A program made the translations under genes and the position numbers. This document shows, piece by piece, positions 19,813 through 22,635 of a DNA stretch of 42,504 bases (positions are counted from its first letter, which is position 1; every line of letters starts with the position of its first letter). The stretch is from a candidate division TA06 bacterium B3_TA06 (GTDB lineage: Bacteria > Hydrothermota > Tepidihabitantia > B3-TA06). Where the stretch lies: NCBI GenBank assembly GCA_005223075.1, contig NJBO01000016.1:1-42504 (forward strand), in the 5' to 3' direction. Under the pieces are notes generated by a model. It made no database searches. It saw nothing but the letters and a program-made list of their open reading frames with translations, and had not been told where the DNA came from.

Positions 19813-20020
19813 TATCATCGCGAGGGAAAGCGAGGCTCCGAAGGGCGACGCTTGCGGGGTACCGAAGGGCGACACTTGCGGAGCACCGAAGGACGACGCC
19901 TGCGGGGTACCGAAGGGCGACGCTTGCGGGGTACCGAAGGACGACGCTTGCGGAGTACTCTCGTATGTGGCGGAGCATGAGGATCTAATGATACCCTGAG
20001 GATTTCTCGATGCGCTCGAA
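19813..20020. repeat. Mosaic repeat element 1 with expanded 24-bp units
   Basis: It begins near ATCGCGAG and ends with GATTTCTCGATGCGCTCG. It carries five tandem 24-bp units at 19838-19957 (CCGAAGGNCGACGCTTGCGG core, 0-4 differences between units). The tail CTCGTATGTGG and TTTCTCGAT are shared with the element at 22438-22635. Confidence 0.65.
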
Positions 20021-20047: not shown

Positions 20048-20098
20048 TCCCCCCGGCTATCCCGTCGAGCAGATTTGTGGGGTAATAATATGCTGGAC

Positions 20099-20153
20099 AA
20101 AAGATGGTCAAAAGATGGTCAAAAGATACCCAAAAGCTACCCAAAAGTTGGTC
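20099..20153. repeat. 11-bp tandem repeat
   Basis: Five consecutive 11-bp units based on AAAAGATGGTC, with AAAAGATACCC, AAAAGCTACCC and AAAAGTTGGTC variants. No coding role is evident. Confidence 0.65.
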
Positions 20154-20166
20154 AAAACCCCGGGGT

Positions 20167-20197: not shown

Positions 20198-20368
20198 TAG
20201 AAAAAGGTGGACAAGGGCGCGACTCCGTCGAGATTGCAAATTGCAAATATCAAACTGCAAATTTCAAATTGCTCCGCAAGCGTGGCCCTTCGGTGCAAAA
20301 TGGATTGACGGTTTTCGGGGTAAAGTGAAGAATTGGATGTAAAGGTGACGAATTGATGAGTTTTCAGG

Positions 20369-20605
20369 CTATGCAGCGGAAATAGACCAACACTCCAATA
20401 CCAACAGCAAAAGGAATAGTATAGAAAAGGATAACAACAAGATGAGCAGCCTAAGGTGGCATTTTTTTTTTACGGTAAAGGCCAGGGATCGGTATTTCAT
20501 CAACATATCATTGAAGTGCATTTGAGTTTCGAGAACTAACTTGTACTCTTGGAATACCCTCTCGACCTTTTCTCTAGTAGTTTCTTTGAGTGGTGTTATG
20601 TTCAT
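20369..20605 (-). CDS. Small membrane protein, possibly frameshifted
   Basis: From the ATG at 20605 the protein has about 78 residues. It comprises a hydrophilic helical part (KETTREKVERVFQEYKLVLE) and, after KKK, one very hydrophobic segment (LLILLLSFSILFLLLLVL). The start lies immediately next to the TGA of a DNA-methyltransferase 3' remnant, as if the two were once coupled. The KKK is encoded by a run of ten A on the coding strand. In another frame the same 3' DNA also reads as a plausible membrane segment ending VGIGVLVYFRCIA at 20364. A slippage mutation is therefore possible. I do not recognise the family. Confidence 0.35.
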   Translation of the reverse strand: MNITPLKETTREKVERVFQEYKLVLETQMHFNDMLMKYRSLAFTVKKKCHLRLLILLLSFSILFLLLLVLECWSISAA

Positions 20606-20606
20606 C

Positions 20607-20672
20607 TCAAACACCCAACTTCCCCTGTTTGTCCTTATCTTTGGTGATACGCTCCGCCCGCTTGAAGGTTAC
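20607..20672 (-). pseudogene. DNA methyltransferase 3'-end remnant A
   Basis: It encodes VTFKRAERITKDKDKQGKLG and one more residue before TGA. This is the same ending as the methyltransferase fragment at 21216 (ITFKRAERINKDKDKQKKLD). Only about 66 bases of the gene remain. Confidence 0.7.
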
Positions 20673-20775
20673 CTTATTCCTCCTCGACGGGAAAGGAGTA
20701 TCACCTTCCCCCGACACTTCGTGTCGACCCCTTCCATCAAGGAAGGGGAATTCTTCGTCTGGTATGATAATCCCC

Positions 20776-20850
20776 CTCCCTGGTGGACAGTGTGCCCCTT
20801 GGGGTGCTAACTTTACTGCACCCCATAGGGTAGGGGGCTAGGGGGAGGGG
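20776..20850. repeat. 75-bp perfect direct repeat, copy 1
   Basis: Identical over 75 bases to 21141-21215. It contains the stem GGGGTGC / GCACCCC and lies just downstream of methyltransferase 3' remnant B. Confidence 0.85.
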
Positions 20851-20856
20851 TAATGG

Positions 20857-20922
20857 TTACACACCCAGCTTTCCCTGTTTGTCCTTATCCTTGGTGATCC
20901 GCTCCGCACGCTTGAAGGTTAT
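20857..20922 (-). pseudogene. DNA methyltransferase 3'-end remnant B
   Basis: It encodes ITFKRAERITKDKDKQGKLG and one more residue before TAA. It is the second isolated copy of the methyltransferase C-terminus. A third, more decayed trace (DRQGELVV before TAA) lies near 20981-21010. Confidence 0.7.
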
Positions 20923-20929
20923 CCCAATT

Positions 20930-21060
20930 TACCTCCCCCTCCCTTTTATTCCCTCCCACCAGGGGAGGGATAATATAGGGTTAGACCACCAGCTCTCCTT
21001 GTCTGTCCTACATTAATATTACCTCCCCCTTGATGGGGGAGGGCAGGGAGGGGGTGAAAC
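20930..21060. repeat. CCCTCCC-type palindromes, cluster 2
   Basis: Several short hairpins such as CCCTCCC-acca-GGGGAGGG near 20950-20970 and CCTCCCCC-ttgat-GGGGGAGG near 21020-21050. They are related to those at 3863 and 34549. Confidence 0.55.
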
Positions 21061-21140
21061 TCTTATCACCTTCCCCGCCACTTTGTGTTGACCTTTTACT
21101 CGACAGGAATACTTACGCTAACAAGGAAGGGGATTTCCCA

Positions 21141-21215
21141 CTCCCTGGTGGACAGTGTGCCCCTTGGGGTGCTAACTTTACTGCACCCCATAGGGTAGGG
21201 GGCTAGGGGGAGGGG
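21141..21215. repeat. 75-bp perfect direct repeat, copy 2
   Basis: Identical to 20776-20850 and directly abutting the stop of the methyltransferase C-terminal fragment. Confidence 0.85.
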
Positions 21216-21600
21216 TTACACGTCCAGCTTCTTCTGCTTATCCTTGTCTTTGTTGATTCGCTCGGCTCTTTTGAAAGTGATATCGTCAGGCGCTATCTGC
21301 GGAATCTTCAGACGTTCAATTCCCTCCAGAAGTCCTTTGACGGTCAGCACCTGCACCCTGGGGTAGTCCTTGTTCATAATCTCGGAATTGTAGAACCCTG
21401 CCGATGCCGCCTCTGACGGGATGTCGGAGCGCTCGGAAGGCTCGTAAAGAAGGATCAAAGCACCCATCACCGCCTTTTCCCGCTGCATGGTTCCCGCAAG
21501 ATCGCGCACGTATGAGACCTTGGGCTTGGCGTCACTCTTGACCTGAACTATGACCTTCTGCGGACTGCGGCGTTTGCTTCGCGTCAGGTTGGCCCGCTTA
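21216..21600 (-). pseudogene. DNA methyltransferase, C-terminal fragment
   Basis: The frame encodes QKVIVQVKSDAKPKVSYVRD, REKAVMGALILLYEPSERSD, EAASAGFYNSE and YPRVQVLTVKGLLEGI. This is the characteristic tail domain (restriction-endonuclease-like fold) found after the N4/N6 methylase domain in many site-specific DNA methyltransferases. The matching N-terminus lies at 22110-22238, on the other side of a RAYT transposase. The catalytic middle is missing, so the enzyme is dead. The open frame begins within the transposase 3' end at 21635 but has no start signal of its own. Confidence 0.75.
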
Positions 21601-22065
21601 TTATATCTCTCTTGGACCTGAGAAAGGATAATCATCTATAGATTCGACTAACCCTTTGCGAACAGAATTTCCCCAGATGTAACGAGCTACTACCTCTATA
21701 TCTTCATCCTTTCGTAAAATATGATCGTAGTATCCTCGTTGCCAAAGGAGCTTACCGTATGAATTCTTAAATCTATAGGATGTAATTTGTTTGAACGATT
21801 TCATCATTTTGACGAAATCGGTATCTTCACCGCCCCCAAGAAGAAGATGTAGATGGTCTGGCATAAAGCAATACGCCAAGATACTGAATTTTGCTTGTGA
21901 GCAGACGGAGTGAAGGGTTTCTAGGATATCATTGACGACCTTTTCGTCTTTGAAGATCGGCGATTTGTTATGAATGCAGATAGTTATGGAATAAGCGTAT
22001 TGGCCTTTGTAGTCGAGGCATTGAAGTCGGGGAGCAGGTTTTCGTTTAGGAAGTTCCTGAACCAT
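21601..22065 (-). CDS. REP-associated tyrosine transposase (RAYT, Y1 family)
   Basis: A 154-residue Y1 transposase of the IS200-like/RAYT group. The HUH metal site is in CFMPDHLHLLLGG, the catalytic tyrosine probably in WQRGYYDHILR, and the C-terminal block RYIWGNSVRKGLVESIDDYPFSG is typical of RAYTs. These enzymes act on REP hairpins headed by GTAG. A REP-like palindrome with GTAG in the same orientation lies 12 bases upstream of the start (22078-22103). It sits between the two ends of a DNA methyltransferase gene. It appears intact and could be the source of the scattered GTAG-headed hairpins. No clear promoter or ribosome site was found. Confidence 0.88.
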   Translation of the reverse strand: MVQELPKRKPAPRLQCLDYKGQYAYSITICIHNKSPIFKDEKVVNDILETLHSVCSQAKFSILAYCFMPDHLHLLLGGGEDTDFVKMMKSFKQITSYRFKNSYGKLLWQRGYYDHILRKDEDIEVVARYIWGNSVRKGLVESIDDYPFSGPREI

Positions 22066-22077
22066 TCAATCATTATC

Positions 22078-22103
22078 GGGCCGACCTAAAGGTCGGCCCC
22101 TAC
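22078..22103 (-). repeat. REP-like palindrome with GTAG head (R2), at the RAYT gene
   Basis: On the minus strand: GTAG, then GGGCCGACC-ttta-GGTCGGCCC (perfect 9-bp stem). It forms the junction with the interrupted methyltransferase: DPPF is followed by residues encoded by the REP and a stop. Confidence 0.75.
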
Positions 22104-22238
22104 GTCAATAAACGGCGGATCGAGGTAGATAAGGTCAGCCGACTCGGAGGCAATATTTTCCCGCAGAACATCCAGATTACCGCCAAAGTAAAGCTGGTTG
22201 CGAAAGTCCCACCGTCTGGGGCGCCACTCGGTGTTCAT
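22086..22238 (-). pseudogene. DNA methyltransferase, N-terminal fragment
   Basis: From ATG 22238 it encodes MNTEWRPRRWDFRNQLYFGG and then IYLDPPF, the catalytic motif IV of N4/N6 DNA methyltransferases. After this the frame enters the REP and stops at 22086. The true start is 22238, since the promoter's -10 box lies 5 bases upstream; the longer frame to 22271 includes the -35 box. The rest of the gene has been replaced by the REP and RAYT. Confidence 0.75.
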
Positions 22239-22437: not shown

Positions 22438-22635
22438 GTCACTGCGAGTAATTTGGAGAGTGCACGGCCCCGAAGAACGACGCTTGCGGAGTACCGAAGG
22501 ACGACGCTTGCGGAGTAATCTCATATGTGGCACTAACCGAAGATATAAGTGCAGCTTGGGATTTTCTCGATCTGGTGCTATGAGATCGCCACCCTTCCCC
22601 GTCTCCTTTGGAGACTGACGGTCGGTCGCAATGAC
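22438..22635. repeat. Mosaic repeat element 2 (MITE-like)
   Basis: Its ends are inverted repeats, GTCACTGCGA (22438) and TCGCAATGAC (22635), matching at 9 of 10. Inside are two 24-bp units (22470-22517) as in element 1, CTCATATGTGGC, TTTTCTCGAT and the hairpin GTCTCC-ttt-GGAGAC (22601-22615). About 200 bp with no coding capacity. Confidence 0.65.

Follow-up and report, generated by a model that had tools for sequence, protein, structure and literature searches.

Why should the 3' end of a restriction-modification (R-M) gene recur, without the rest of the gene, downstream of itself? The question is raised by a window of 42,504 nucleotides, the whole of contig C16 of a 2.41-Mb genome of the bacterium B3_TA06 (labelled G000; its relatives are labelled G001, G003, G004 and G005). 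Among named relatives, the nearest are MAGs of candidate division WOR-3 / Candidatus Stahlbacteria. The original prediction held that the last 22 codons of a DNA methyltransferase gene appear twice more here, with a faint third trace, and that either gene-plus-spacer duplications or repeated replacement of methyltransferase alleles had left these tails behind. We refer to the gene-attached tail (g), the orphan tails c1 and c2 and the trace c3, all on the minus strand. Our preferred explanation, to which we give a probability of about 0.58, is that the pile is a stack of 3' ends from serial allele replacement of a methyltransferase/Mrr-like endonuclease gene between lexA and tldD.

The Gene Remnant and Its Surroundings

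Read in the coding direction, the site runs from the N-terminal codons of the gene through an insert with a RAYT (REP-associated tyrosine transposase) and a GTAG-tagged hairpin (22103–21601) to the endonuclease-like part, then through a palindrome, a spacer, c3, a hairpin, c2, the palindrome again, a second spacer and c1 to the relic of a partner gene, which is followed by lexA (Table 1).

Table 1. Features of the gene relic and the tail pile, listed in minus-strand order.
Feature	Positions	Strand	Evidence
Methyltransferase N-terminal remnant, 45 codons (MNTEW..DLIYLDPPF)	22104–22238	-	Translation; matches start of intact homologues
GTAG-tagged REP hairpin GTAGGGGCCGACCTTTAGGTCGGCCC, one end of RAYT insert	22078–22103	-	Sequence; GTAG-REP class per PMC3733652
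RAYT inside methyltransferase relic	21601–22065	-	Y1_Tnp E 1.8e-18; NCBIfam REP_Tyr_transpos
Mrr-like endonuclease C-terminal part of fused methyltransferase-endonuclease, pseudogene fragment	21216–21600	-	90–91% identity to intact G000:C10
Gene-attached tail, 21 codons + stop, ITFKRAERINKDKDKQKKLDV*	21216–21281	-	Alignment
Dispersed palindromic repeat, copy 1 ("75-bp block")	21136–21216	-	Repeat search, alignment
Genome-dispersed REP-like hairpin CCTCCCCC-TTGATG-GGGGGAGG	21011–21059		Repeat search
c3, tail trace reduced to the final 29 bases	20981–21009	-	Matches c2 over 29 bases, no gaps
REP-like hairpin, dispersed in genome	20934–20974		Repeat search
Junction AAATTGGG, REP end / orphan tail c2	20923–20930	-	Sequence comparison
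Orphan tail c2, ITFKRAERITKDKDKQGKLGV*	20857–20922	-	Alignment; synonymous-change analysis
Dispersed palindromic repeat, copy 2	20771–20851	-	Repeat search, alignment
GACACTTCGTGTC palindrome spacer, dispersed repeat	20701–20750		Repeat search
Orphan tail c1, VTFKRAERITKDKDKQGKLGV*, likely original 3' end of resident gene	20607–20672	-	Partner-gene relic directly after
Relic of small membrane-protein partner gene	20369–20605	-	In intact operon G001:C18, gene directly follows methyltransferase stop codon

The gene had been taken for a DNA methyltransferase, but only an endonuclease-like end and the 45 N-terminal codons remain; the frame is incomplete and the N6_N4_Mtase domain is absent from the window copy. 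The open reading frame at 21216–21635 covers the endonuclease-like C-terminal part only, and its Mrr_cat match (PF04471, E 0.008, 16.7 bits) lies below the cut-off of 21. The intact homologue elsewhere in the genome (G000:C10), an open frame of 565 amino acids, reaches 26.1 bits for Mrr_cat, above the cut-off, and matches N6_N4_Mtase (PF01555, E 8.8e-47) and PADLOC MTase_II (2.4e-67). Further intact homologues occur in relatives, and the translations of the intact homologues contain DPPF and DPFCGCGTT motifs. By these domain matches the intact homologues are predicted Type II N6/N4 DNA methyltransferases fused to an Mrr-like endonuclease, and the window gene is, on sequence grounds, a relic of this fusion, with its methyltransferase domain lost and a RAYT mid-gene. 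No relatives of the gene were found in viral contigs in a check for viral carriage. The intact partner, a membrane-protein gene, showed a weak PADLOC match (Hydrolase-TM, 1.9e-11).

The transposase belongs to the RAYT family, scoring 112 bits against NF047646 (REP_Tyr_transpos; cut-off 80), which places this Y1 transposase above the family cut-off. Like REP/RAYT systems described elsewhere (GTAG-tagged REPs, PMC3733652; REPINs, PMC3116915), the site has a RAYT with a GTAG-tagged hairpin, in the relic, and many-copy short palindromes between genes. It differs from them in that the C-rich hairpins separating the tails, and the 76-bp block, belong to other palindrome families than the GTAG-tagged REPs. 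A RAYT with similar GTAG-tagged ends, internally deleted, was also seen in G001:C45 (L080:7713–8064), where it stands opposite, beyond the pile, with block 2 on one side of it and the partner gene's end on the other.

Tail Copies and Their Divergence

Alignment confirmed both predicted recurrences of the gene's 3' end, with the length corrected to 21 codons plus the stop. The orphan tails c1 and c2 are identical at 58/66 positions, whilst the gene tail matches c2 at 49/66 and c1 at 47/66. Across the 2.41-Mb genome the best other match of c2 is c1, with an E value of 3.7e-19 that excludes chance. The third trace is also real, though short: the score of c3 against c2 was reached by none of 500 mono-nucleotide shuffles.

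Besides c1 and c2, orphan tails were found in G001 (C45), G003 (C1), G005 (C39), G004 (C103) and elsewhere in G000 (C6), with a partial, marginal echo beside G005:C11. All those in relatives stand at methyltransferase loci. The tails of C6 and C103 had seemed remote from any methyltransferase, but their flanks place both at a second methyltransferase locus (see below). A widespread repeat lying far from methyltransferases, as the original prediction had considered, was rejected since the tail is present only at methyltransferase loci. Our sampled stretches cover approximately one sixth of the G000 genome, supplemented by searches, and among the 438 ORFs of that sample no other gene had orphan tail copies. 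With no other case there, a general REP-linked copying of gene ends was also rejected. The other echoes inspected in the sample were repeat-like sequence or tandem genes; one control for tail echoes, at L137:5700–7100 (G000:C6), was a tandem pair of whole helix-turn-helix genes.

The codon changes between tails showed how they had diverged. Between c1 and c2, seven codons differ synonymously (one of them the stop codon) and one non-synonymously, where random substitution would give around five non-synonymous changes among the eight (P = 0.0008). For c1 and its G003 counterpart the changes were nine synonymous and two non-synonymous (P < 0.0005). The divergence of the tails is thus coding-like, and because the differences are mainly synonymous, most of it arose inside working genes.

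Three other explanations for the pile were weighed. In the first, a unit of tail plus spacer within one gene was duplicated in tandem, REP copies having slipped or crossed over unequally, and the copies then diverged neutrally. The repeated order of tail, block and spacer would fit such an origin, as would the 99% identity of the blocks, but beside these blocks the gene tail and c2 are only 74% identical; the shortage of non-synonymous changes between c1 and c2 disfavours neutral divergence, and pieces of the spacer occur alone at many other sites. We consider it improbable. The plain gene-plus-spacer duplication offered by the original prediction was not supported, with tails 71–88% identical against 99% for the adjacent blocks, and with block and spacers dispersed.

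In the second, an R-M unit inserted with a long target duplication, on the order of 100 bp, as in Helicobacter, and the inserted genes were later lost. Direct repeats of 66 bp at an R-M gene are what this would leave, and events of the same kind are in the literature (PMC3874152, PMC4978471). Such duplicates would start identical, however, and the orphan should decay neutrally, whereas the orphans here evolved as coding sequence; furthermore, what lies between the tails is REP-like repeats and no R-M gene, and the tails are diverged alleles, which sets the pile apart from this class. We rate this origin a little lower again.

The third explanation was a diversity-generating retroelement, with the downstream copies serving the 3' end of the gene as template repeats. 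Copies of the 3' end do lie downstream with hairpins between them, but template adenines account for only 2–3 of the 17–19 mismatches and the genome has no reverse transcriptase match. We rejected this explanation, giving it next to no weight.

The relic of the partner gene follows c1 as the intact partner follows the intact gene in G001:C18, which makes c1 the probable original end of the resident operon. The tail still attached to the gene comes from a lineage of tails other than that of c1. In most pairs, divergence is greater in the gene tail than in the final ~100 bases of the body, suggesting that the tail may have a history separate from the body's; we counted this against serial replacement.

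Dispersed Repeats Between the Tails

The original prediction reported a perfect 75-bp repeat between the tails and, with the similar spacers, treated it as part of a repeated gene unit. The identity holds, over 76 bp (20776–20851 and 21141–21216, bounded by one mismatch at 20775/21140), but the block is not specific to this gene. It is a palindromic element of ~80 bp with ~25 further sites in G000, and it is also present in G005, which represents another genus of the family; the extra copies are tail-free in the flanks shown. The spacers, likewise, are genome-wide repeats of their own, and the C-rich hairpins, which are REP-like, recur all over the sampled part of the genome. Judged from their sequences and distribution, the 76-bp block and the spacers are genome-wide repeats and not parts of a gene-specific unit.

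The ~80-bp element is restricted to the family and has near-invariant CCCCCTACCCTATG...CAAGGGGCACRCTGTCC around an inner hairpin (sites include L135:9298–9375 and L132:14682–14764). By eye, the sides of the inner hairpin seem to vary pairwise. Since RNAalifold on that alignment showed only two pairs with double changes, we make no claim of a functional RNA; a comparison of the block with Rfam gave no match above the gathering score, and no transposase was assigned to the element.

Other repeats surround the site. A 24-bp tandem repeat, CCGAAGGGCGACGCTTGCGGGGTA, lies at 19829–19964 and recurs at 22461–22500 and, inverted, at 20270–20296. An 11-bp tandem repeat, CAAAAGATGGT / CAAAAGATACC, occupies 20087–20157, and similar arrays of the TTTTGACC type are also present between other genes, some close to each of the two methyltransferase loci.

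The Site in Related Genomes

The site between lexA and tldD, with its relic, is common to G000, G001, G003 and G004, and the gene is a pseudogene in all four of these species. Its internal gaps differ between G000 and G001, whilst G003 and G004 have a common gap. The number of tails varies: G004 has a single one, G003 has two, and G000 has three as well as the trace. The separate G001 assembly also has c3, c2 and block in this order, so the pile did not arise from an error in a single assembly.

Between G000 and G001, lexA and tldD are 98.6–98.8% identical, and the sequence on both sides of the site is 97–99% identical. The pile is 96–98% identical, the 3' part of the gene 89% and the N-terminal part 87%. 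The gene remnant, rather than the pile, has therefore probably been exchanged since these two species split. G000 and G003 are more distant, with only 61–76% identity at third positions of the flanking genes, but their gene tails match at 62/66 positions and their spacers at 57/60 and 62/69, indicating that tail and spacer have passed between lineages.

The comparison of G003 with G004 fits serial replacement less well. Their gene bodies are 95% identical, yet they differ by a clean 165-bp unit of tail plus spacer, and the only tail of G004 is like the downstream one of G003, beginning with its first base. This difference fits a small cassette and recombination with another allele equally well. 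A 95% identical body beside such a unit nevertheless counts against replacement, and insertion or excision of the unit is the simpler account.

A Second Methyltransferase Locus

The second methyltransferase locus, which lies between murA and rlmN, spans the end of C6 and the start of C10 in G000 and corresponds to C18 in G001, C67 in G003 and C103 in G004. Alleles have turned over here between conserved flanks: G000, G001 and G003 have intact alleles with unrelated central recognition regions (~40% identical), whilst G004 yielded no more than remnants of tail and partner, at the end of a contig. The pile is shared across species and across two loci, and the second-locus spacer in G000 matches the window spacer at 152/155 positions.

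The proposed hotspot for R-M genes is supported by these flanks, which enclose intact genes with unrelated recognition regions in three species. Repeated replacement of methyltransferase alleles, the other process that had been put forward, is likewise supported, by the second-locus alleles, by the 11–13% divergence of the remnant against flanks of 97–99% identity, and by the synonymous changes in the tails. Counted against it, an intact new allele and an older orphan tail never stand on one assembled contig, as assemblies break in the repeats. Such breaks were seen at the start of C10, at the end of C6 and in C40 and C45 of G001 (which overlap by 41 bases), and the two sides of the second locus in G000 are separate contigs with a gap.

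Junctions at the Tail Edges

All of the orphan tails have their left edge at an identical base. The bases before the tails are also alike (AAATTGGG, GAATTGGT, AAATAGGA, AATAAG, AAATAAG and AAATAAAAAGG), and, one or two loose exceptions apart, the AAATNRGG-like sequence at these edges does not follow the other REP copies of the sample. As the sequences before the tails resemble each other, and differ from those after most other REP copies, this favours a putative single ancestral REP/tail junction over repeated site-specific insertion. A fixed target tetranucleotide of the IS200 type was rejected because the edge bases differ among copies, and an in-frame REP insertion with the tail still translated was rejected because a stop stands two codons upstream of the tail in c2, C6 and C103. 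No recombinase besides the RAYT was identified in the relic; the edges are precise, perhaps from one ancestral junction.

Integrative elements can use the 3' end of a gene as an attachment site and restore the gene, as e14 does in icd. By analogy, a miniature mobile cassette of tail copy plus REP spacer might insert between two codons, 22 codons ahead of the stop, giving the gene an in-frame replacement tail and, with repeated insertion, stacking the old tails downstream in the manner of integrative elements at gene 3' ends. The identical left edges and the clean presence or absence of 165 bp between G003 and G004, beside a 95% identical body, would suit this cassette. So would the G000/G003 comparison, in which gene tail and spacer are 90–95% identical, as against 85% for the final 111 bases of the body and 80% for the old tail. 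The identity between these two genomes shows no jump at the tail start, however, its best break lying 91 bases upstream; the junctions resemble one ancestral junction rather than repeated insertions, no recombinase of the cassette's own was found, and it was not seen in any other gene of the sample. We regard the cassette as possible but unlikely. Its more specific form, a short non-autonomous element with a spare copy of the last 22 codons and REP hairpins that inserts precisely at the tail start, and so swaps and stacks 3' ends of an R-M gene in particular, is somewhat more doubtful. Although the gain of a new 3' end and the downstream displacement of the old one are shared with integrative elements, no integrase was found here and the units, at 165–359 bp, are below the usual element size.

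Discussion

In the serial replacement that we favour, the original state would have been a gene body followed by tail c1 and the partner gene. Incoming alleles would have brought their own tail and downstream hairpin repeats; recombination would have displaced the older body but not its tail or the partner gene, which then lay behind the new repeats. Homology arms may have been supplied by the 66-bp tails and by the REP-like spacers. A single REP/tail junction may have arisen once by illegitimate joining and then spread among alleles and loci by homologous recombination, and the window copy would later have decayed, losing its methyltransferase part, with the RAYT transposase at the gap. We infer the crossover positions, the order of events and the single origin of the junction from these comparisons.

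R-M genes are described as moving and replacing each other, some with long, variable target duplications on the order of 100 bp (Nobusato 2000 and Furuta 2010, cited in PMC3874152 and PMC3031569). In one Helicobacter case, an R-M cluster may have been the insertion site of another R-M unit, which a direct repeat flanks (PMC4978471). The outcome at our site is alike, in that genes move or are replaced and direct repeats are possible. Here, however, the repeat is the enzyme gene's own 3' end in several stacked copies, and these are diverged alleles rather than identical duplicates, with only palindromic repeats between them. We class the pile as an unusually legible variant of the mobility already known for restriction-modification genes, and not as a new class of system.

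R-M turnover is usually inferred by comparing alleles, whereas here the likely original end sits beside its partner gene. With displaced 3' ends kept in order, a single site allows a count of past replacements and a comparison of that count among species. The site also offers an example, from an uncultured phylum, in which palindromic repeats and short gene ends may serve as homology arms.
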